In this document: one piece after another, positions 3,645 to 62,111 of the stretch
Layout: each line of letters begins with the position of its first letter
Position numbering within the stretch: position 1 is the first letter of the stretch
NCBI RefSeq assembly: GCF_040954835.1
Contig: NC_090704.1
Location: forward strand, 44,396,979 to 44,460,978
Reading direction: 5' to 3'
From: Lepisosteus oculatus
Lineage: Eukaryota > Chordata > Actinopteri > Semionotiformes > Lepisosteidae
DNA: 64,000 bases
Position numbers and translations under genes: made by a program
The notes under the pieces: generated by a model
What the model was told of the DNA's origin: nothing
Database searches by the model: none
What the model saw: only the letters and a program-made list of their open reading frames with translations

Positions 3645-5528
3645 CTACCACCAGCGGAAGTGCGCGAAGGCTCGGTTGGCCTCGGCCATCTTGTGCAGGT
3701 CATGTTTTCTCTTGATGACGTTGCCCTCGTTGGCGAAGGCCGCCATGAGCTCCTGGGACAGCTTCTCGTACATCAGGGTGCGGCGGTGCTTGTTGTCCCG
3801 GCACTCCACGATCATCCACTTCATGGCCAGGAAGCGCCGCCGGTTGTCCGTGAGAGGGGTGGGCACCTGCGTGAGCAAAGCGTGTTACAGCTGACGGGAG
3901 GCCCGCGCCTCGGCCGTGATCCTTCTCATTCCAGAACCTCGCCAGAATGCGGAAGATCAAAAAGTTTCAGCTAAAAGTAAAAAAACGCTTTGCAGAAATG
4001 GAAATGCACAGCAGCCCTGCGGTTGCTTACCTGGTAGAACTTGCCTCCTCTCTGAATGCTTGTTAGGCCAATCACAGGTTTGCAGTTATTCAGAGCTTCG
4101 TGGAAGATGGCGTATGGGTTGCACTCGATCTCATCCTTCTGTGCGGCTGGCGCTTTGTGAAACTTCTCCACCTGCTTTCTCTTTATGTTCTCCAGGGTCT
4201 AGAACAGTAAAAACAAAAACATGCTCATGTTGTGTGGGATGATGCCTTGAACCTTGTAAGCCATTGTGTTAATTGCTTTAGTACTGCAGTAACATGTACT
4301 CAGAAAATGTTTTTTACAGAAAAAGCTTTACGGAATCACAGAACGGGGTAATATATAAAATGTATGTACTTATTTAAAAAAGTAAAGCTTTAGTGGATTA
4401 CAGATTTTCTGATCTGTGTGTACTGCAGTGGCTGTGCACATCACATTCTCAGATTAGTTACAAATACATTAGATCACAGTGCAGGACAGACCTTTGTCAT
4501 GATAGACCTGGCCAGGACTTTATTACCATCTTGCATCATCATGTTCACAAATTTACTGTGGAAAGAAATAAAATGTTATTATAAAATAGTTTAAAGTAGC
4601 TTTTTTTAACTCTAACTGTTTAACCAAGTATCGGAAAGAACACAGCTATGGAAACTAGATTCTTAGTCCTAATAATACGAGTTTGAAAAAAGCTTTATGT
4701 TGATTTGCTATACTTAGATGCCATTGAAACCTTATTTAGTTTTATGTGCCATTGAAACCTTATTTAGTTTTATGTTGAAAATCCCTTCTGTTCCTTTTTT
4801 ATTCCCACCTGATAACGGGGTCGTTAAAGACAGAGCTGGTGATCCCAGCAGGAGCTGCTTTAATCGGTCTGACAGCCTTCAGTTCTCTCTCCTGCTTCTC
4901 CTGCTCCGACAGCTCCGACGCCGGGGTGAGGTACTTCTCCTTGTCCGGCTCGGGCTCCAGGTAATAAGGGTTGTACCTTCCCCATCTCGCCTGAAAAACG
5001 CTGCGGGATAACACCGAGTTATATACTGCATGACTAAAATAAATCCTGGCTGCAAACAGCTTCCAATAGACCATTTAAATTACAAATAACACTTGAATTA
5101 CCTCAGACGATTTCAGCCACATCAGTTGTATCGCAAAATAATATCTGTTAATGCATTCAAAGGTACACTGTAGTATAGTAAATGCCGCATGTCATCATCC
5201 CTTTCGGTATTGTCTAATATCTCAATTTAATGGAAAGATTTTGCTGCTTTTCGACACAAGTCATGGCTGTTTTAAGTCGCTTTCATTACACTAATATAAA
5301 TAGTAAAATATCCTGCATGATTCTTCATCATGTCAGGGAGAAATCAAAATGTTATGAGCGCCCCAGACACGTCCATCAAGAAAACAAGCGAATTGCGCAC
5401 AGTAATTCTATGATAGCCTTATCCTCACAAAATTGTTTGTGAAAACCAATCTAATTCTAAATATCTCCTAAAAAAAGAAATTACCTAGGGCTCCAGGGTT
5501 TCAGTAGCTTGGCTATGGAAGCAGCCAT
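3645..5528 (-). CDS. MRPS7: Mitochondrial ribosomal protein S7 (uS7m)
   Basis: MRPS7 is a small-subunit mitoribosome protein of the uS7 family; it binds the 3' domain of 12S rRNA in the matrix. Minus-strand coding exons are 5485-5528, 4809-5000, 4492-4555, 4031-4198 and 3645-3866. Phases join without a break into 229 aa (human about 242). Exon 1 is [13 protein letters not shown], a short basic leader suited to mitochondrial import. Later landmarks are [48 protein letters not shown] and the ending [16 protein letters not shown]. Exon 2 uses the acceptor cccgcag before CGTTTTTCAG; the nearer tttttcag would break the frame. The start ATG lies inside AAGATGGCTGC, a YY1-like start context common in mitochondrial protein genes. 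GGA3 diverges from the same 416-bp gap. All introns are GT-AG. Confidence 0.96.
4719..4774. repeat. Perfect 28-bp tandem duplication in an MRPS7 intron
   Basis: The 28-bp unit 4719-4746 is repeated exactly at 4747-4774, with no spacer. It lies between MRPS7 coding exons 2 and 3, about 35 bp from the exon 2 donor on the minus strand. Perfect identity suggests a recent slippage event. Confidence 0.85.
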
Positions 5529-5944: not shown

Positions 5945-8900
5945 ATGGCGGATCCGGAAGGAGAGTCACTAGAGTCTTGGCTTAGTGAGTAATTGGAAGG
6001 AAAAAATAATGTTCTATGAATGATAATGTTAATGAAACTGTGTTATTCAGAGACGTGTACAATACATTCCGCCCGCGAGTGACTGAACCATATAGCCTGA
6101 TGGACTTGACAGCTTTTATTTAATCAATAAGACTGTAGCTGTTAGTTTTGGATCTTAGTGGATTTGCATGACATTTGCAGACAACTTGTGTACGCTGTCT
6201 TATATCACAGAAATGACTTAGTTTCCTTGCTGCAGTCAACAGTATGCTTGCATCTAAATTTCTGGTGCTTACGCAAACTGTAGAAAGATAGCTTGTTAGG
6301 GCTTTCTCATAACGGTTACCCGCAAGGATCGTTGTCATTTGCATTTGGTTTTAGGTTCTCGACTCTTCTCCCTGTGACGCTGGCATGAAACCGCGATAAG
6401 CGTATGTCTAGACACTGTGTAGTACTTCGTTATTAAACCATCAATTTCTGCAGGCGAGTTTGCTTTCTTTTGTGGAATGTTGGAAAATCCAAGAAGGCAT
6501 CTTCAGCTTGATGCACACCATACCGCATGTTGCAGATGTCCTGCTGGCATTTCTTTCCAACAAGCCGGTGTCTTTCACAACTAACCCCTTGCTGATCAGC
6601 CCTGCCGGTGTTGATATTAATCCGCATAATGAATTTACCTTTGTCACGTCCGTTCAATAAAATATCAGTGTACAGTACTTGCCACAAATCAGATTGTCAA
6701 TAGCCTGATAGTATCTTTGGGAACTTTGTGTTGCAGTTGTAAGTGCTCTCTTTAATGGTCAGGGTATAATATATGATGAAGTGCCTCACATGTCTTTTAA
6801 GTATCATGATAATAATAATTCCTTACACTTATAATGCTTTTCTGGACACTCCACTCAAAGTGCTTTACAGGCAATGGGGATCCCCTCCACCAGCACCAGT
6901 GTGCAGCCCCACCTGGATGGTGCGATGGCAGCCACACACCAGCTCTCAGTGGAGAGAAGAACAGAGTGGTGAAGCCACTTCATGTCAATTAAGAATGATC
7001 TAATTCCATATAGTAACATGTAGTTAAATTAGTGCTGCAAATACTGGTATTCTTGACAGGCCTGTTTGTATCAGTAGTAGTGATACTGGCATATGTGGTT
7101 ACATTGACATTTCAAATGTCCAGACTTTCAAATGGCTGCCCTCAGTTTTTCTTCTTTGGATCTTCAGGAACATAGGGCATAACACCTAAAGTGATGAAAG
7201 CCTCAGACCACAAAGAACCTAAGATGTTATCGTAGCTGCTTCATAAAGTTTTAAAACATTTGCATGAGTTTGAAACTGTGCTGGTGAGCAATTGCTTCTT
7301 AAGGAGCAATAATTTTACTCTCCTCCCCAGATAAAGCCACCAATCCCTCCAACAGACAGGAAGACTGGGAATATATCATAGGATTCTGTGACCAAATCAA
7401 TAAGGAATTAGAAGGGTAGGTCACACTCTTTCTTAACTGTCTTCAGAGAAGTGGGAACAGAAAAGGTCTGTGAAGAGTGAGTTGGAATGGCCACTTAATG
7501 TGAAGGTCTGATATGAAGGGCTGTTTTGGGTCAAGGGTTGCAATTGCAGTACTGATGTCCAGAGCCTTCAAGATTATACAGTTTCAATAAACAGTGATTT
7601 GTGGATATTTCCGTTTACCGTTTTCCGTCGTGTGCTCCGCCCAGATAGAGATGCTGTGCGTGTTTTGTGAGCAAGCTCTGAATTGTTATGACCAACACTT
7701 TGCCTCTAAATCCCATTATCAGTATGGATCTTCAGGTGTTTCTGTCCACATGGACTGGGAAGATATGGCAGATGAAACCAGCTGTGTCCAGTAGACAGAA
7801 AGTCCAGAAGCCAAAAAGTCAAGGACATTGATACGAGTGTGGCAGACAAATTGCTCACATTCAGTAACCCATTTGGCTCCAATCCCAACATTTCTTTAAT
7901 ATACTCTAGGAAGAAGATTAAAATAATAAAATGAAGATTCTGTAAATACTTTAGATTGCAAATCCTGAAATCACGAGAAAGGTGAGTCACACGTATTGTG
8001 CATCATCTAATATTGTCAAAACATGGATTGCTTATACAAGGTAGGATGGATAGGCATGAAGATTTCTGTGTGTTGCTGGACAGTATGCTGCTTTTGGATC
8101 AAGGAGTTCTAAGCAAAAGGAAAATGTTTTTTTCTTTAGTCCACAGATAGCTGTGAGGTTACTGGCTCATAAAATCCAATCCCCACAGGAATGGGAGGCT
8201 ATACAGGCCCTGACTGTAAGTACCAGCTGCTCCTGAGACATACAGTCAATTCCTGCATTTTCCCTGTGTGGTGTCTCTCTATACACAATCTGCATTTCTG
8301 CGAGTGTTTAAGCTTGGTGCCCATGTTTTGATTTTAACATTTTTTTTAATCACTGCAGGTTTTAGAAGCTTGCATGAAGAACTGTGGGAGAAGGTTCCAT
8401 AATGAAGTTGGAAAGTTTAGATTTTTAAATGAATTGATCAAAGTAGTTTCCCCTAAGGTGAGTCCACAGGTATCAAATGATTTTGTCCACCTTGGGCAAA
8501 TGGAAAGCAGTAGGTGACAAAGGGTGAAATATAAGGGCATCGGCTCAAACTCCAGACTGAGACAGCAGCAGACCTGGGCTAACTCACTCCTGCGTAATAG
8601 TTTCTCCCAAATAGACCAGATAATGAACAGTAATTAATTTGAATTGTTTTTGTTATTGAGCGCTTTTCAAGCCGTTGTTGGAATTGCTTTCTTAGGAACG
8701 TGGGTGTGTTGTACTTGTCTAAAGCTAGTTCTCCAACTGCCATTCCTGCTCTGAGCTCTAATTACTTAATAGGACTTGTTGGCGAAAGAAGTCACAGCAT
8801 CTGCCTTTGCAGGTCTGTTGCTAATTAAAAAGTACCTGTAAAACCAGCTGGACCCTGGCTGTGCAGGATTGGAGTTGCCCTTCCCTGATGTAAAGGCTTT

Positions 8901-9059
8901 ACTGTCCCTCTTATTCCTGCCTTCGTTTTATTTCAGTACCTGGGTGACAGGGTATCAGAAAGGGTGAAGACAAAAGTTATCGAAATGCTGTACAGCTGGG
9001 CGGTGGCCCTACCCGATGAAGCCAAAATAAATGAAGCCTATCAAATGTTAAAGAGACAA

Positions 9060-9113
<54 letters not shown>

Positions 9114-12100
9114 TGCTTTCACTTATATAGCGCTTTTCTGGACACTCCACTCAAAGTGCTTTACAGGTAATGGGGATCCCCTCCACCACCACCAATGTGC
9201 AGCCCCACCTGGATGATGCGACGGCAGCCATAGTGCGCCAGAACGCTCACCACAAATCAGCTATTAGGGGAGAGGAGAGCAGAGAGTAATGAAGCCAATT
9301 CATAGATGGGGATTATTAGGAGGCCATGATTGGTAAGGGCCAATGGGAAATTTGGCCAGGACGCCGGGGTTACACCCCTACTCTTTTCAAGAAACGCCCT
9401 GGGATTTTTAATGACCACAGAGAGTCAGGACCTCGGTTTTACGTCTCATCCGAAGGACGGCACCTGTTTACAGTATAGTGTCCCTATCACTATACTGGGG
9501 CATTAGAACCCACATGGACCGCAGGGTGAGCGCCCCCTGCTGGCCCCACTAAGACCTCTTCCAGCAGCAACTTTAGTTTTTCCCAGGAGGTCTGCCATCT
9601 AGGTACTGACCAGGCTCACACCTGCTGAGCTTCAGTGGGCTGCCAGTTGTGAGTTGCAGGGTGATATGGCTGCTGATAGGTAGGTTGTGAGTCATCGCCC
9701 ACTGCTTTTCAGTGAATCTCGTAGAATTGTGGGCTGGAAAGGGACTCGTTTTTTCTCTTTTGGGTTTGTGTTTGTTGTTAGATTAATTACAGTGATAACA
9801 ATAATGGGATACCAGAATCAGTGCACTTTATTCTTACTTCTTTCTACACCTGCGCTTCATCTTTGCTGAAAGGCTGTGCAGCACACTGGCGTCAGCGTTT
9901 CCTTCTCAGGCACGCAGCTGCCCTGATGAAACTGTTTCCACCCTTTTCCACTGTCAGGCATTGTGACCTCAGACCCAGAGATCCCCGTCGACAAGACTCT
10001 GATTCCCTCTCCCCCGGCACGCCCCCGGAACCCCGTGTTTGAGAATGAAGAGAAGAGCAAGGTGGGGATCCAACATCAGCACCAGTTCACCACAGCGTGA
10101 AAGACAAGGGGTGCTGGGGGGGTCTTTAACATTTTCCTTGTGCAAAGCACCATAGTGGGCGAGAGAAGGGATAGGTTGTTTCTCCGTGTGTGTATGACAA
10201 CACTTGTGTGTACAGACAACACTTTCGCACTGTGTGCACTGTACATTACAAAGCAGTAAAGACTTGTGAATAATGACAGTACAGCAAATCACAAGAAAAT
10301 GGAAATGCAGACCAGTAAACACACAGGAGAATAAACATATGGTAGGCATGTAGCTACACATGAGGTGTTGTCATGAAATGGCACTATCTTGATAGGTCTT
10401 GATGGTGTACAACTGTTCCAATTTAAATGAATGTTCCTTTTTCGTTAGAACCAGTCTAGAAGCGTATTGTTGCTTCCCCTTGTAGATCCTGGCTGAGCTC
10501 CTAAAAAGCAAAAATCCAGAGGACTTGCAGGAGGCCAACAGGCTCATTAAGAACATGGTCAAGGAGGTAAGTGTGAGATTCACTTTCACTCATGCGTAAA
10601 TACTCTGAACAGAGATGGGCGTGAAAGATAATCGGAAATGGCCTTTACTTTTCAGGATGAAGCCAGAATGCAAAAGGTGACAAAGTGTGCAAACACCCTG
10701 GAGGAAGTCAACAACAACGTGAAGCTCCTCAATGAGATGCTGACCCACTTCAGCAGAGAGGAGTCTTCTGAGGGAGACAGAGAGCTGATGAAGGCAGGCG
10801 TGGAGCCCTTTTCTCTTTACCCAATTCTGCCTGCCTAGCTGTGGCAGTTCTGGGTTAACTCAGTTCTGTGAAATTATTTTTCTTCCAATTTAGACTCAGT
10901 ACTGCAATTAGATTGGCATTCTTTTTGTTATTGAGAGCTTTCAGGCTGTTGTTGGAATTACTTTCTTGGGAACGTGGGTGTATTTATCTAACTGCAGGAC
11001 TCCCTCTGCACTGTCACAGGCCTGCAATTTCGTTTCTGACTTCAAAATTAAGACGTACCTTTGAATGAGTCTGTTTGAAATGATGCACTGTATGTTGCTA
11101 GACACAAACAATGGATGTATTGAAAAAAATCTCTGTGTAAACGTTTGGTTCCTGGTGGTTCTTTTAGGAGCTGTACGATCGCTGTGACAAGTTGAGACGC
11201 ACTGTGTTCAAACTGGCCACGGAGACGGAGGACAATGACAGCAGCTTAGGTAACACATGTCCCGGCTGGGCGCCGATGTCTGCCATCGGTGCAGTTCGCT
11301 CTCCCTCATCGTGGATCCTCTTCTCTCTTACACAGGACAGATTCTGCAAGCGAGTGACGACCTCTCCCGAGTCATTAACTCCTACAAGAGGACAGTGGAC
11401 GGGCAGGCAGTCAACGGAGAGCTTGATTCCTTGGGACTGGCAGCTCGCGAAAGTGAGATTTGCGTTTCCCGTGCTGTAATTCCCCTGTGGCATCCACCCC
11501 TGCTTAATGATCGTGGCGTCAATGTTTCTGTTTGTCCGTCTCTTTAAATACGTTACAGCAAAACATAACTTTCCCCCTTTTCATATTCCTTGTAATGGGA
11601 GGCTTTTATCTGCATTCATAGGAAAGCAATCCATCATTGCTACTTTTCCCCCCCCTTTCTGCTGGGCAGCCCATAAAGGCAGCAGCAATACAGAGACGCT
11701 GATTGACCTGGCTGGCATTGACGTCTCGAGCCCCTCGCCCCCGGAACCAGCACCTCCTCCTCCTCCCAGGACTCTGGCTCCGGCTCCGGCGCCACCGATC
11801 CCCATCCTGCCTCCGCCCCCCCAGTGCTGCCCCGCCGCTCCGTCCGAGAGCCCCGGCGCTCAGCCGGCAGGCCGCGGCTCCGCTGCGCTCTCGCTGCTGG
11901 ACGAGGAGCTGCTCTCGCTAGGTGGGTCGTCATCTTCTAGCCCTTTTTAATCAACTGGGACGCACGCTAGCCCACCCGGGCTTTTTTGGACGAGTACAGT
12001 GTATGTTGAACAGAAAACAATTCTTTTTTTTTTTGCTTCTTTTGTACACGGGATGTTTAAGATTTCCTTATCCACCACTAGTCATACCGTACTGATGTCT

Positions 12101-16412: not shown

Positions 16413-25829
<9,417 letters not shown>

Positions 25830-43317: not shown

Positions 43318-43838
43318 GCCAGCGGCCATATCACCCTGGAACTCACAGCTGGCAGCCCCCTGGAGCTCAGCAGGTATGAGCCTGGTCAGTACCAGACTCC
43401 TGGGAAAGCTAAGGTTGCTGCTGGAAGAGGTGTTAGTTGGGCCAATAGGGGGTGCTCACCCTGTGGTCTGTGTGGGTCCTAATGTCCCAGTATAGTGATG
43501 GGGACACAATACTGTAAAAAAGGTGCCATCCTTCAAATGAGATGTAAAACTGAGGTCCTGATTATGGTCATTAAAAAGGGCATTTCTTGAAAAGAATAGG
43601 GGTGTTACCCTGGTGTTCTGGCCAAATTTCCCCCTGGCCTATACCAGTCATGGCCTCCTAATAATCCCCATCTCTGAACTGGCTTCATCACTCTGTTCTC
43701 CTCCCCACTGAGAGCTGCCGTCACATCGTCCAGGTAGGGCTGCACATTGGTGGTGTGGAGGGGAGTCCCCTTAACCTGTAAAGTACTTTAAGTGGATTGT
43801 CCAGAAAAGCGCTATATAAGTGTAATATTACTAATATT
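43318..43838 (+). mobile_element. 5S rRNA-derived SINE, near full length, older copy
   Basis: Plus-strand copy with head gcggccatatcaccctggaa, tgagcctggtcagtac and gctaaggttgctgctgg, the same body as 9061-9678, and the tail cctgtaaagtactttaag, agaaaagcgctatataag. There is no long (ATT)n end, and it carries many C-to-T and G-to-A changes, so it looks older. The CTCF-like site has decayed to CCAATAGGGGGTGCTC at 43442-43457. Confidence 0.85.
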
Positions 43839-44334
43839 GTTTTATTCTTCTTCTTCGAGTAATCGAGGTCTTCAAAGCACTGAAAGTCAAACACTGGATT
43901 TCGTTAGAATCAGCAGTGAAACTAGTGGTGTGAGTGGAAACTAAAAGGAAGGCATTTAAAACATGAGGCGGGCCTTTACGCAAAGGGTGGTGGGAGTGTG
44001 GAACAAGCTACCCAGACAGGATTCTCTCAAGAAATGATTGACGAGATTCTTGAATCAATTAGTTTCTGACAACCAAGCCTAAATTAGGCCAGTTGGCCTC
44101 TTGTTCGTGACAGTTAAATCAAACAGTTGATCCTTAAGTACAAGTTTTTACTATATATGTTCTATATATTTCTTGCAGTAATATGGCAGATATAATACAT
44201 TTCATAGTAAAAAGATGCTTCTGTGTAAATGTACTCATAAAATTCATATCTGACGATTAATACTGCTGTTGCATATGATAGAAATTCCCCCCCAAGGTTT
44301 CAACTGAAAAACAGTACAGTATTTAAAAGTTTGT

Positions 44335-44347
44335 CCACCAGGTGGCA
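44335..44347 (+). promoter_or_regulatory. CTCF-like motif outside a recognised SINE
   Basis: CCACCAGGTGGCA fits the CTCF core in the form with T at the ninth position. It lies between JPT1 and the B7-like gene. Sequence match only. Confidence 0.35.
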
Positions 44348-44619
44348 ATGTTATATAAACTTTTAACTTTTGTGTTCAATATAATGTGATATATTGGTGT
44401 ATAACGCTGCTTCGTTTTTAACAATCTGTTCTAAGAGGCTGTTTTATAAAATATCACAGTGCACTACATTGTAATTAAGACAGTTGAAAAATAATACTTA
44501 AAAAGGCCAGTTTAAAATAGAGATAAAGGTTGAACATAAAAGACTTTTTAAATCACAGTCTAGTTTTGGGACAGACAAGATATGAATCGAAAAACCAGAT
44601 GCTCCTTGTAAGTCATTTA

Positions 44620-46470: not shown

Positions 46471-47807
46471 ATTTATCCTTAACTGAATCACACAACATTT
46501 TTCTCAGTTAAAAACTATTTCAGGGAAAGGGAAGTCTGTAGACGTCTTGATCTTAACATTTTAGGGACTTTCCAAGAGGCATGTCCGCTTCCTCATGGTG
46601 TTAGCTAATTTCCTGTGAAGGTCTGAAAAGAGGAAGGCTCTTGAAGCAACAGGGACGTTCCTGAGAAATGTGTGACCCTTTCCCAAGTCACCTAGAATCA
46701 CTTTTAAAACACGACTTGTGAACCAGACACAACAGGTCATGATGTGTGGGAGTGCAGGTGGGTTTATTTAAATCAGAGGCTGCCCAGGCCTGCTCCTGTT
46801 AGCCCCAGGATGTGTGCAGTTGGTTGTCAATACTGGTGCTGTTGTGACTTGCTCATTCGTGATGAAGGTGTATGAACTGATATGTGGGTGGGAGTGTTGC
46901 CACCCACTTTTCACCAGCTGATTCATATAAGGAAAAGTTGCAGGTTGCAGGTCGAAGGTTTGGGTTTGGGTTCGTGCTTCTAGTTGCGCTTCTTTTTAAA
47001 AAACCTTTTCTGCTTTAAAAAAAAAAAGATGGATAAGGCAGATTAACTTGAAAAGAGGTGAAAAGGGCAAAACGTGGCTTTCGTTTTGACAGTCCTACTC
47101 CCTCCCTTCCTTACTTGGCAACATCGTGTGGACTTTCCTAGTTAGAGTCTAAATGCAATCACCCAGCAAGGGCAGTGCAACCTACGCATGCTGACGTTGC
47201 TGCTAAAATTGTGATTTGTTAAGTAAATTAAGATCATTCAGGACTGAAATCTAAGGACTCTTCTGTCCTAGGCGATCATTCTCTTAATTGAAGAGATTTC
47301 TTGCCTTTTTTTTATCAGTACCGTACAGGGTTAGGACTGAAGACCCCTGTGCTGAACATGAGTAGAAGGAAACAAACACTGGTGCATCTGTTGTGGAGGT
47401 TGTCAGACAAAATTCAAAGTTTGGTTGGCAAAAACAGGATTATTTGGCAATCTTTTTAAAAAGCACAGAAAACTGCTGATGTTGCACTTCAAATGATGGC
47501 ATATTGGAGCCCGGATAATGAATAAGAAATATACATAGTCAGGTCAAAACAGTTAACTTCTCCCAAATGCTTAGTGAGGACGAATTAAACTGGAACACTT
47601 TTTTCTGCACTGAGCTAAAGAGCAAAGATTTTATCTAATTTCCTGTTTTATTATTTAACAGTGAACATAAAAATTGAATGTAATTTTATACAGTATTGGA
47701 AGAAGAACAAAAGGATTTGATTCATGAGCGCTGTCCTGAACAGTCGATCAGAACTTATCCTTGGACATATAAAAGCTCAGTAAACAGACTTCATGAAACC
47801 AATACTA

Positions 47808-49150
47808 TAATAATAATAATAATAATAAACTTTATTTTATAAAGCACCTTTAAATGTCGCTTTTCAAAGTGCTTTACAGAATGACAACAACAATAAATAA
47901 AAATAATACACAAGATAAAACACAACTACAATACACAAAGACCGTGGATGGTGGTACTAAGTATTATAGGCGCAGAGGGGTAAAGAATGGACCCAGTTAA
48001 GTAAAGGCTCTTCTAAAGAAGAAGGTTTTGAGTCTGGATTTCAAGGAGTTTAGAGAAGGTGACTCTGATATCCTTGGGGAGAGAGTTCCAGAGCTTGGGA
48101 GCATAACAGGAGAAGGCCCTGTCACCCATAGAGTGTAGACAGGATTGGGGAACAGTAAGGAGAGCAGAATTAGAAAAGCGAAGGTTGCGAGGTGGGGAGT
48201 AGGGCGCTAATAGTTCAGACAGGTATTGAGGTGCCAAGCCATGCAGAGCCTTATAGGTGAGCATGAGGATTTTAAAGTCCACACAGAATTTGACAGGAAG
48301 CCAGTGCAAGAACTCTAGGATAGGAGTAATATGATCACTTCCACTAGACCTGGTCAGGATTCTGGCTGCCAAATTTTGGACAGACTGCAGTTTGTTCACT
48401 GTGGATTTAGACACCCCAGGGAGTAGAGCATTACAGTACTCAATTCGGGAGAACACAAATGTGTTGATCAGCTTTTCAGCCACAGTTAGTGATAACATAG
48501 GGCATAGTCTAGCGATATTTCTGAGGTGAAAAAAAGATATTTTGACAATATGCTGCACATGTGGGTCAAATGTTAAGGTAGAATCGAATATCACCCCAAG
48601 GTTTTTCAATTTAGACTGAAGCTCAAGTACAGTACCATCTACAGATAGGGTAACAGGACTGGCTTTACGAAGTTGATGGGGGGTGCCAATAAACATGACT
48701 TCAGTCTTGTCACAGTTAAGATGAAGGAAATGTGGAGTCATCCAAGTTTTTATGTCAGAGATGCAATTAGATAGAATAGAGACGGCCACATCAGTGTCAG
48801 CTTTGGTATGGATGTATATTTGAGTATCATCAGCATAGAAATGATAGCTGAGGCCATGTGATCTTAAAAGCTGACTTAGTGGAAACATGTAAATGCTGAA
48901 GAGCAAGAGGCCCAGTATTGAGCCCAGAGGAACACCAGACTTGACGAGACCAATTTCAGACATATATCCGCCAAGAGAGACAAAGTGACAGCGATCAGTG
49001 TAAGTGATCAGGTAAGACTTGAACCATTTGGGAGCAGCGTCAGAAACTCCAAACACAGTCTCAAGACGAGAAAGTAAGATGTCGTGGTCAACAGTGTCCA
49101 AAGCAGCACTGAGTTCAAGAAGGATGAGTACAGAAAGAGAACCGGAATCA
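47808..49150 (-). mobile_element. L2-clade LINE, 5'-truncated, open reverse-transcriptase frame
   Basis: A minus-strand frame of 362 codons (48013-49101) without a stop covers the reverse transcriptase from LDTVDHDILLSRLE through GVPLGSILGLLLFSIYM, the catalytic FYADDTQIY, and the C-terminal HWLPVKFCVDFKILMLTYK and LHGLAPQYLSELL blocks typical of L2 elements. In-frame coding continues upstream to about 49139 (LSAALDTVDH). The 3' UTR of about 200 bp ends in a ctttacag stem, ataaagttt and (ATT)n at about 47808-47828. The endonuclease and N-terminal RT are missing through 5' truncation. The intact frame implies a fairly recent insertion. It cannot move on its own as it stands. Confidence 0.9.
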
Positions 49151-49379
49151 GAATCAATACTAAAACTGAATTATACATGAAAGGATTTGGTTTTGAAAAT
49201 CAAGGGATTCTAAGTTGGGTTTGGAGGCGTCCGAAGCCACAGAATCTCTCATGTATCTGGTCAAGAGAAGGCTCTTGTGGAACCTGTACATTGGCACAGC
49301 AAGATGGCCTAAATCAGTAGAGATTTATCTCGGCCTGCGATCCGGACTATGCTCATGCAATGCTTACTGCAATTCAGGA

Positions 49380-53586: not shown

Positions 53587-56500
53587 ATGGACAGAAGTGC
53601 TTGGCTGTTTGCTGTGGTGTTTATTGTTGAATTCACCAGGGTAACCCCCTCTGACAGTAAGTGTATTTTTAATTGCATTTCCTGTTGTAGCTATAGAAGT
53701 GAATGTAGCTGAAAGTACCTCACCTTGAGTGACAACTGAAAGAAGATGGATTTGTGCTTGAGGACCATTCTTTCTTCTGCACTGTACACCTTCTCATTGT
53801 GCTGTGCCTCTTGGAACTGTTTGAACACAGTAAACACACTCGTACAGTGCATTAACCTAACACTTCTCAAATCAAAATCTTCTTATTTTAATTCCACAGA
53901 GCTTGTAAGTATGCACTGCCAGTCCGAACACCATGGGAAATTTGGCCAGGACACAAAGCTCAGTTGTATCGTGAACAGCACCTCTTCAGAAGTCAAAATT
54001 GCCAAATTACTTTGGAAGAAGGAATCTCAAGGTTCGGTGTTAACTTATGATTATGGCAAAAAGAAGGCAGAAGATCCTCGTTTTGAGCTAGCCCACCAAA
54101 GTTGGGGTCCAAACAATTTGGATGTCTCTTTGTTGGTGAGAAACACAAAGATATCAGATCAAGGAGCTTACTCCTGTGTGGTTGTGACAGACCGGGGTTT
54201 CTGTAATGGTGTGACCACACTGCAAGTCACAGGTAAGTTTCAGTGGCCTTAAACTCAAAAGGAGTTGTACTGAAAACAGTTAGCGTATGAGTGATATCTG
54301 AACTGTGAACACTATAAAAAAGCATTCCTAGTGTATTTTAAAAGGCTTTTTGTATTTAAAAAAAATACAAAAAAAAATTAGACTAAAAGATATGTCCTTC
54401 CTGGAGAATCATCCAGCTAAATGTTTAATCCCTGAAGTAGAAGGAAACAAAATGATACTTGTTAGGACTCTTCAAAGCTCATTACTTCCAAACTCTTCCT
54501 GTGCCCTCCAGGTCTGTGTTGTCCTGGTAGGCAGTGATCTCTCAGCCTCAAGACTGGCCTGAGTAGAGCAACAGCTCTCAGGCACAATCTCTTCTAGTTT
54601 ACTCTTGTCTCTGGAGAGACTGAGATCTCTAGATGACATCTGCGACGAAGATGTGTGCTTGTGTTTGAGTTACTAGAGGAAACATTTCAGCCGGAACACA
54701 AGCGCTGACTTTGGTTTTTCCCTTTCCATGACAGCTGCATACGCCCAGCCCGTCATGAGCTCCATACCAGCAGAAAACATTCAGGAAGACAGCACAGTGG
54801 AGATTTTCTGCAACACGAGTGGGGGTTACCCTGAGGGAAGAATCATGTGGCATGACCAGTATGGCACAGACTGGACACGGAGTGCGCAGACGAAGGCAGT
54901 GCTGACCGAAGACGGGCGCTACAATTTGACTAGCAAATACACAGTGCTCAAGTCATCCTCCAGCTCTCTTGAATACAGTTGTTCAGTACATAATAGTCAA
55001 CAAGTCAAAGAGGGAACACAGGTCCATCATCTGATGTTTGGTAAGTTCACATGCATGTCTTTATCTCTTGATAGTTTCGACTCTAATGCTTCCATTATTT
55101 TGCTTTTTTTTTTGCCTTTCTGATCAGAATGCAGCATGACTTGACCTGGTGGCACTCACATTGTGCAATAATGTGTTCATGTGGAGCCACAGACAGATTT
55201 ACTGTATTTGGCTTTCAGGTCTCAGATGGGGCTTTTGCGACCTTGAGAAAGATACTGACAGGCTGCTCCGGTACAATACCCAGCTGTGTAGATGAATGCT
55301 CTCCAGGTCTTCATTCTCTGTCCAAGTCAAAGTTTTTGATGTACTTAAAATGCAGGGTCAATTTAAAAGCTCCATTTAAAAGCATTTTCTTTTCTGAAGT
55401 CTTAATAATAAAACAGATCTAGGAGGGAATCTGCTTTTCCAAGATGTGTACAGTTTGGATCCTGGTATTTAAATAGCCCTTATATCAACGCAAAGAACAT
55501 AAGGTATTCTGTAGGCTTGGAGCCCTGGCACAGTTGCAGTATTCAGTGGTGCCAGTTTTTGAGAGGAGGCCTGAATGTCTGATAAGATGTGTAATACAGC
55601 CGTAATGACCTTTTTGTGGTGTGGTGACCCCGTGGCCTAATGGATAAGGCATCAGCCTCTGGAGGTAGGGATTGTGGGTTTGAGTCCCATCTGGGTTGTG
55701 TGTGATTACATGTAGTGGGTGGAGAGGTGACACTGTGGCTAAGGATCTGTGCCTGTGGCTGGAAGGTTGCTGGTTCAAACAGAGGAATCTTACTCTGTTG
55801 GGCCCCTGAGCAAGGCCCTTAACCCCAACTGCACCAGGGGCACTGAATAAATGGCTGACCCTGCGCTCTGACCCCAAGCTTCTCTCTCCCCATCTGTGTG
55901 CCTGGGTGTCTCATGGAGAGGAAGCTGGGGTATGTGAAAAAAGACAAACTCCTAATGCAAGAAATTGTATATAGTACGTATAAAGTGATTTTATCTTATC
56001 TTTGTAACCCGATGGCGCACACTGTAATTCTGTATGAGCAAGGAGCAGGTATTGAACAGCAGGGGTACAGCTGTGCCCTGTACTGAAAGCAGTTCACACC
56101 TGGACCGTGACCTTTGTGCACTGGGGTCCCCTTCACAGCTGTGTGCATTTTTAACTTCCAACCCACAGGCAGTGGCAGATCGTGTGTTGACGTGTAGCGA
56201 TCTTATTTCCGATCGCCCGGTGTTTGCCGTGCATGTGTACGTTACTGAGGTATGCAATGTTGGTGGAGGTGCAGTGTGTAAGCGCTCCGATGTTTCTCCC
56301 AGGTCCTAATAAGATGGAAGGCCCCAGTAACTCCACTGCAGTGGCAGCTGTGTTCGTTGTGGTGGGAGCTCTGGCCGCTGGCATTTTGGTTTTGTTCCTG
56401 TTTCGCCGAAGGAGGAACTCCGGAGGTGAGCCATGCTTTCCTGTGCGGAGCTGGGAGGGGGACTGTGGAGGGCATGCAGTCACTCGCCGGAGCCAGGGTG

Positions 56501-61500: not shown

Positions 61501-61504
61501 AGGC

Positions 61505-61665
61505 AATGGGACCCACACAGACTGCAGGGTGAGCGCCCCCTACTGGCCCCACTAACACCTCTTCCAGCAGCAACCTTAGTTTTTCCCAGGAGGTCTCCCA
61601 TTCAGGTACTGGCCAGGCTCACATCTGCTCAGCTTCAGGGGGTTGCAGGGTGATATAGCTGCTGC
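61505..61665 (-). mobile_element. 5S-derived SINE head fragment with intact CTCF-like site
   Basis: On the minus strand: ctatatcaccctgcaa, agcctggccagtacctga, gggagacctcctggga and ttgctgctggaagaggtg, then CCAGTAGGGGGCGCTC at 61531-61546. The element stops after about 160 bp and has no tail. This is the 5' end of the family without its 3' end, the reverse of ordinary 5' truncation. Confidence 0.8.
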
Positions 61666-62111
61666 CAATGTACATAGCTGCTCAAGAGCCAGACCAGTCT
61701 ACTTTATAAAGGCCTTCGACAGCAACGTGTGAATCGAAGTGAACATTTTGCAGTGTTTTTGTTTTTGTGGTTTCTTTTGCAGGGAACATCCTCATTTATT
61801 TTCGACAAGGGGGTTTCAGATCTGCTTGGACAGATGGCAGAGCTGTGAGAGAGTCATTTACAAAGCGAAGGAATGTATTGTCACCGATAGCATTAGGAGT
61901 GTGCTCCTTCATAAAAATTGAAGAATAGGCAACTATTTCAGCCTGCCATTAGCTGACTTGTCACATCAAGTCTTCTCTTTTTTGGTGTTTTCTGAAATGA
62001 AATTCCGGTTTCGGTTCTTGATCGTGGTTGAGAATTGGACATGCTGAGATTGTCCCAGGGGGAAGTGTTGGTCTCCCAACCTTACCTACAGTTATGCAAA
62101 AACCTGTTCCT

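Follow-up and report, generated by a model that had tools for sequence, protein, structure and literature searches.

The window, the whole 64-kb stretch of Lepisosteus oculatus DNA analysed here, contains several protein-coding frames and a family of dispersed SINE copies. On the plus strand, an exon at 8937-9059 encodes a GGA3-like VHS domain (top PDB match GGA3, E 3.3e-17). Minus-strand frames matching MRPS7 (3645-3884) and NUP85 (20505-20813) lie close to this GGA3-like gene, a neighbourhood that resembles human 17q25 and is in keeping with a vertebrate host. Immunoglobulin V-set and C2-set frames at 53764-55120 resemble a B7/butyrophilin-type protein, and a tRNA-Gln-like gene or tRNA-derived element is found at 55625-55699. 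The GGA3-like exon apparently ends at 9060, precisely at the start of one of the SINE copies, and is followed by GT and then (AAT)n. Positions 9061-9062 of the plus strand are thus both the GT of the apparent splice donor and the edge of SINE copy 1; because GT and (AAT)n adjoin the exon end, the SINE tail would provide the donor intron bases from +3 on.

By blastn within the window, the SINE is represented in the 64 kb by two full-length copies, one head fragment and two 3'-end fragments. These copies, their parts and the LINE fragment discussed below are as follows.

6803-6934, minus strand: SINE 3'-end fragment, motif-less, from element position 451 on (blastn 90.3%, 134 columns).
9061-9678, minus strand: SINE copy 1, full-length, 5S-headed (Rfam 5S head; blastn against copy 2).
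9063-9113, minus strand: (ATT)n terminus of SINE copy 1 (from the sequence).
9114-9166, minus strand: LINE-like 3' tail with stem-loop, copy 1 (alignment and folding with the LINE tail 47807-47879).
9528-9546, minus strand: CTCF-like site GGGCCAGCAGGGGGCGCTC of copy 1, core CCAGCAGGGGGCGCTC at 9528-9543 (24.07 bits, p 2.6e-9).
9559-9677, minus strand: 5S rRNA-derived head of copy 1, including the putative type 1 internal promoter for Pol III (RF00001, 41.0 bits).
22481-22589, plus strand: SINE 3'-end fragment (below, the fragment at 22475), motif-less, from element position 484 on (blastn 90.8%, 109 columns).
43318-43855, plus strand: SINE copy 2, full-length (blastn 79.5% over 594 alignment columns, E 8.7e-149, against copy 1).
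43439-43457, plus strand: weakened CTCF-like site GGGCCAATAGGGGGTGCTC of copy 2, core CCAATAGGGGGTGCTC at 43442-43457 (16.15 bits, p 1.5e-6).
47807-49170, minus strand: LINE fragment with a reverse transcriptase frame at 48013-49170 and a 3' tail at 47879-47807 (RVT_1, E 6.9e-18).
61502-61664, minus strand: SINE copy 3, with head, motif and the start of the body only (blastn 82.5%, 177 alignment columns).
61531-61549, minus strand: intact CTCF-like site GGGCCAGTAGGGGGCGCTC of copy 3, core CCAGTAGGGGGCGCTC at 61531-61546 (23.32 bits, p 5.9e-9).

Copy 1, which runs along the minus strand, consists from its 5' end of a 5S-like head, a body with the CTCF-like motif early in it, a tail and the (ATT)n terminus. 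Copy 3 breaks off abruptly at 61502-61520, early in the body. Since such a tail-less 5' fragment is unusual for target-primed insertion, a later deletion or rearrangement of this copy is likely.

The element had been predicted to be a 5S-rRNA-derived SINE, and this is borne out by its heads, which match the Rfam family RF00001. The gathering score of 38 is exceeded by the heads of copy 1 and copy 3 (61562-61666, 42.8 bits) but not by that of copy 2 (43318-43426, 36.1 bits). The promoter region was compared with that of human 5S rRNA. Identity to the human sequence in copies 1, 2 and 3, respectively, is 38/48, 31/48 and 37/48 for positions 50-97, 31/49, 31/49 and 24/49 for positions 1-49, and 14/24, 14/24 and 15/24 from position 98 on. 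On this comparison, copies 1 and 3 conserve the internal control region better than the sequence upstream of it. In copy 2 the promoter region, where a deletion is located, is conserved no better (31/48 versus 31/49).

The 3' tail of the SINE resembles that of the LINE fragment (E 1.5e-6 by blastn within the window, helped in part by the ATT repeat). The LINE tail opens with the same 16 bases as the SINE tail, CTGTAAAGCACTTTGA, and terminates in an ATT repeat. A similar stem-loop is formed by the LINE tail and by three of the four folded SINE tails (copy 1, copy 2 and the fragment at 22475); the fragment at 6803 carries a 2-base deletion and folds differently. By eye, a G-C pair of the stem in the fragment at 22475 corresponds to an A-U pair in the LINE. 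Judging from these letters, the LINE in the window represents the likely partner type of the SINE. The tail common to both is presumably L2-like.

The CTCF-like motif lies directly downstream of the 5S-like head in all three head-containing copies, and in copy 1 it begins 15 bases past the head, in the body. When the window was scored with a JASPAR-type CTCF matrix (127,964 positions, both strands counted), copy 1 ranked first, copy 3 second and copy 2 fourth, so that all three head-containing copies in the window carry the motif at p 1.5e-6 or better, two of them intact and one weakened. The third place is taken by TGTCCACCAGGTGGCAATG at 44332-44350 (20.9 bits, p 5.4e-8), a strong CTCF-like site outside the SINE copies, which lies about 0.5 kb beyond copy 2 and is oriented towards copy 3. 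The original prediction had given the positions and letters of the motif core correctly for all three copies, and the fit to the vertebrate CTCF core that it proposed is confirmed by the two top matrix scores of the window.

When the SINE was dinucleotide-shuffled 5,000 times, the top score was 20.9 bits, and when the entire window was shuffled 200 times it was 22.9, so that 23.3 bits was never reached; about 3e-4 matches as good as that of copy 1 are expected in the window (p multiplied by positions). The level of copy 2, 16.1 bits, was reached by 33 of the 5,000 SINE shuffles, and its score is therefore weaker evidence by itself. With a looser 15-base consensus, allowing up to three mismatches, eight matches were obtained versus 2.79 expected, a number reached in one of 100 shuffles. 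The 14-mer CCAGCAGGGGGCGC of copy 1 is found in an oligonucleotide termed core site in CTCF zinc-finger crystallography (PMC8629902), and the 16-mer GGCCAGCAGGGGGCGC of the same copy in the HighOc1 CTCF site of cohesin experiments (PMC10132984). On the basis of the matrix scores, the shuffles and these shared 14-mer and 16-mer, the SINE motif is, by sequence, a full-strength CTCF core. Three motif-bearing copies, all within the 64-kb window, do not establish a family consensus; as the motif is common to them by descent, they constitute a single observation and not three.

The divergence of the copies was counted on the three-copy alignment (columns 6-182), omitting columns with a gap in any copy and the 27 columns round the copy 2 deletion (alignment columns 79-105). 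Over the remaining 136 columns, copies 1, 2 and 3 have 7, 8 and 8 private changes. Over columns 1-190, which take in a few flanking columns, the corresponding numbers are 8, 9 and 10 (142 columns compared), and one column differs in all three copies. Copy 2, with its weakened motif, is not visibly older, the number of private changes being about equal in the three copies. Its motif departs from the majority motif at two places, where one change (C to T) is of the CpG type and the other (G to A) is not; position 5 of the motif is T in copies 2 and 3 and C in copy 1, and either letter fits CTCF. CpG decay in copy 2 is real: copy 1 has 12 CpGs to which a base of copy 2 is aligned, and two of these are retained. 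The proposal that old copies lose the site through CpG decay, so that young ones should matter most, is nevertheless not supported by these three copies: they are about equally diverged, one of the two motif changes is not of the CpG type, and the weakened site still passes the ordinary threshold of 1e-4.

The resemblance to CTCF sites might be due to chance or base composition. The element is G-rich at the motif, short G-rich cores recur by chance in large collections, and bacterial contigs match the 19-mer GGTGAGCGCCCCCTGCTGG at 17 loci. These 17 loci were considered as possible relatives of the SINE and rejected: blastn alignments at the motif do not exceed 28 columns, and all remaining matches have E values of 0.2 or more. 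The bacterial matches are therefore taken as chance. No relative of the SINE was detected in viral contigs (0 matches in five pattern scans) or in phages. For the motif as a whole, the absence of any shuffle at 23.3 bits or more, of the SINE or of the window, and the small number of matches expected at the copy 1 level already disfavour such an origin, which we consider very improbable. The same scores bear on the idea that the G-rich stretch is kept as a hairpin of the SINE RNA, GCAGGG-GGCGCTCA-CCCTGC, so that the likeness to CTCF sites would be incidental and CTCF uninvolved. Copy 1 forms this hairpin at -21.8 kcal/mol (z -1.68), and so does copy 2, with its altered motif, at -16.1 (z -1.51), but shuffled sequences are equally or more stable in 10/200 and 18/200 cases, respectively. 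Copy 3 folds differently, with z +0.37 and 127/200 shuffles at least as stable. Taken with a CTCF resemblance above that of all shuffles tried, these values make an RNA hairpin across the motif unconvincing, and we regard it as an improbable reason for the conservation of the stretch.

The main rival explanation concerns ADNP, which belongs to the ChAHP complex and competes with CTCF at SINEs. If the motif were read mainly by ADNP, the element would be mostly closed and few CTCF sites would have been seeded. The opposite strand of the copy 1 motif, at 9531-9542, fits exactly the ADNP-type consensus CGCCCYCTNSTG, and CGCCCCCTGCTG (9531) and CGCCCCCTACTG (61534) are the only exact matches to this consensus in the window. 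Competition between ADNP and CTCF is described for mouse B2 in PMC8136502. However, since the two consensuses overlap, a match to one nearly implies a match to the other, and the footprints reported in zebrafish SINE3-1a were called as CTCF (PMC9341505). We consider a predominant role of ADNP possible but rather doubtful.

The reading that we prefer is that a SINE3-like 5S SINE with a LINE tail delivers directional candidate CTCF sites, a minority of which would be bound and most of which would be silent; we estimate its probability at roughly 0.7. The closest published case is that of zebrafish, in which SINE3-1a is credited with 1,016 CTCF-bound sites, identified by ATAC footprints with CTCF ChIP as a check (Lee et al. 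2022, PMC9341505). That paper also reports enrichment of SINE3-1 and SINE3-1a in proximal ATAC peaks of multiple tissues, and a SINE contribution of 7.0% of TE fragments versus 11% of those at CTCF sites of TAD boundaries; 5S rRNA is not mentioned in its text. Like the SINE described here, SINE3-1a and SINE3-1 belong to fish and to the SINE3 class, a likeness at the level of class. SINE3 is placed by Repbase in the 5S class (PMC5753468 and PMC10886601), and a 5S head of SINE3-1a is suggested by the class name; the head of the window SINE matches RF00001. In the literature consulted, the SINE3-1a footprints are the only CTCF data on a 5S-class SINE of fish. AmnSINE1/DeuSINE is also of the 5S class (SINE3/5S rRNA in human Repbase; PMC5753468), and CTCF is absent from the main text of that paper.

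In contrast to the window SINE, with its 5S head and different LINE tail, rodent B2 elements have a tRNA-type head and depend on L1. PMC8136502 describes a B2 subfamily consensus with a CTCF motif, which spreads CTCF sites. In lamprey, SINE/tRNA-V is listed with CTCF ChIP-seq peaks (59/602 regions, odds ratio 17.83); it differs from the window SINE in being classed as tRNA-headed and in its jawless vertebrate host, and the text of the study emphasises LTR and hAT elements rather than this family (PMC5504073). With these lamprey data and the zebrafish sites already in print, the originally predicted novelty of a 'parallel invention' in this fish is not sustained: the main claim has been published for a zebrafish SINE of the same class (PMC9341505). 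What we did not find, in the main texts consulted, is a report that places a CTCF motif within the consensus of a fish 5S SINE. The accessible parts of the platypus genome paper and the Aspergillus SINE paper contain nothing on CTCF motifs in 5S SINEs. SINE enrichment at TAD boundaries is described in PMC9077971, but non-mammalian genomes are named among the exceptions, and SINE3 is absent from that paper. Literature searches with letters of the SINE body and tail matched only with the shortest term, of 10 letters, among others in a barramundi BAC paper. The motif letters also occur in a salamander primer list, where they are those of a primer.

What the sequence itself shows is the anatomy of the SINE, the strength of the motif, its occurrence in all three copies of the window that have a head, and the LINE-like tail. 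The steps that we infer for the delivery of CTCF sites by the SINE are Pol III transcription, mobilisation, CTCF binding and effects on loops. The 5S head would act as an internal Pol III promoter, and the LINE reverse transcriptase, through the stem-loop tail shared by SINE and LINE, would copy the SINE RNA into the genome. Lying inside the mobile unit, the motif would travel with each head-containing insertion, so that every insertion reaching the end of the head would deliver a directional candidate CTCF site. The orientation of this candidate site would follow that of the insertion, as motif and element read in the same direction. By the orientation rule known for CTCF in mammals, a loop would fall on the LINE-tail side of the SINE. 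In the window, the motifs of copies 1 and 3 point left, and the opposite orientation, rightwards and facing copy 3, is seen at the 44332 site; such orientations are an arrangement and no evidence of a loop.

The bound minority would consist of unmethylated copies with an intact motif in open chromatin, as reported for zebrafish SINE3-1a, and the remaining copies would be silent passengers. CTCF binding probably needs low methylation. The motif contains a CpG, which, together with reports on TE methylation, counts against the preferred reading: in zebrafish only 1-4% of TE CpGs are lowly methylated (PMC9341505), and SINE3-1a is highly methylated in 13-hpf embryos (PMC4275248). For mouse B2, binding is described as independent of the number of methylated cytosines (PMC8136502).

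More tentatively, the CTCF/ADNP-type site may be a founding part of an old 5S SINE lineage common to distant fishes. One element would then have seeded directional CTCF sites on repeated occasions, separately from the rodent case; ADNP would be its antagonist, and the interior of the loop would lie on the LINE-tail side. Beyond the published principle and the zebrafish case of the SINE3 class, the value added by the present SINE lies in taxonomic breadth, the exact position of the site and its orientation. If the motif belongs to the family consensus, the head-containing and head-less copies would provide built-in controls, and the family would constitute a natural non-mammalian experiment on the rewiring of CTCF sites by mobile elements.
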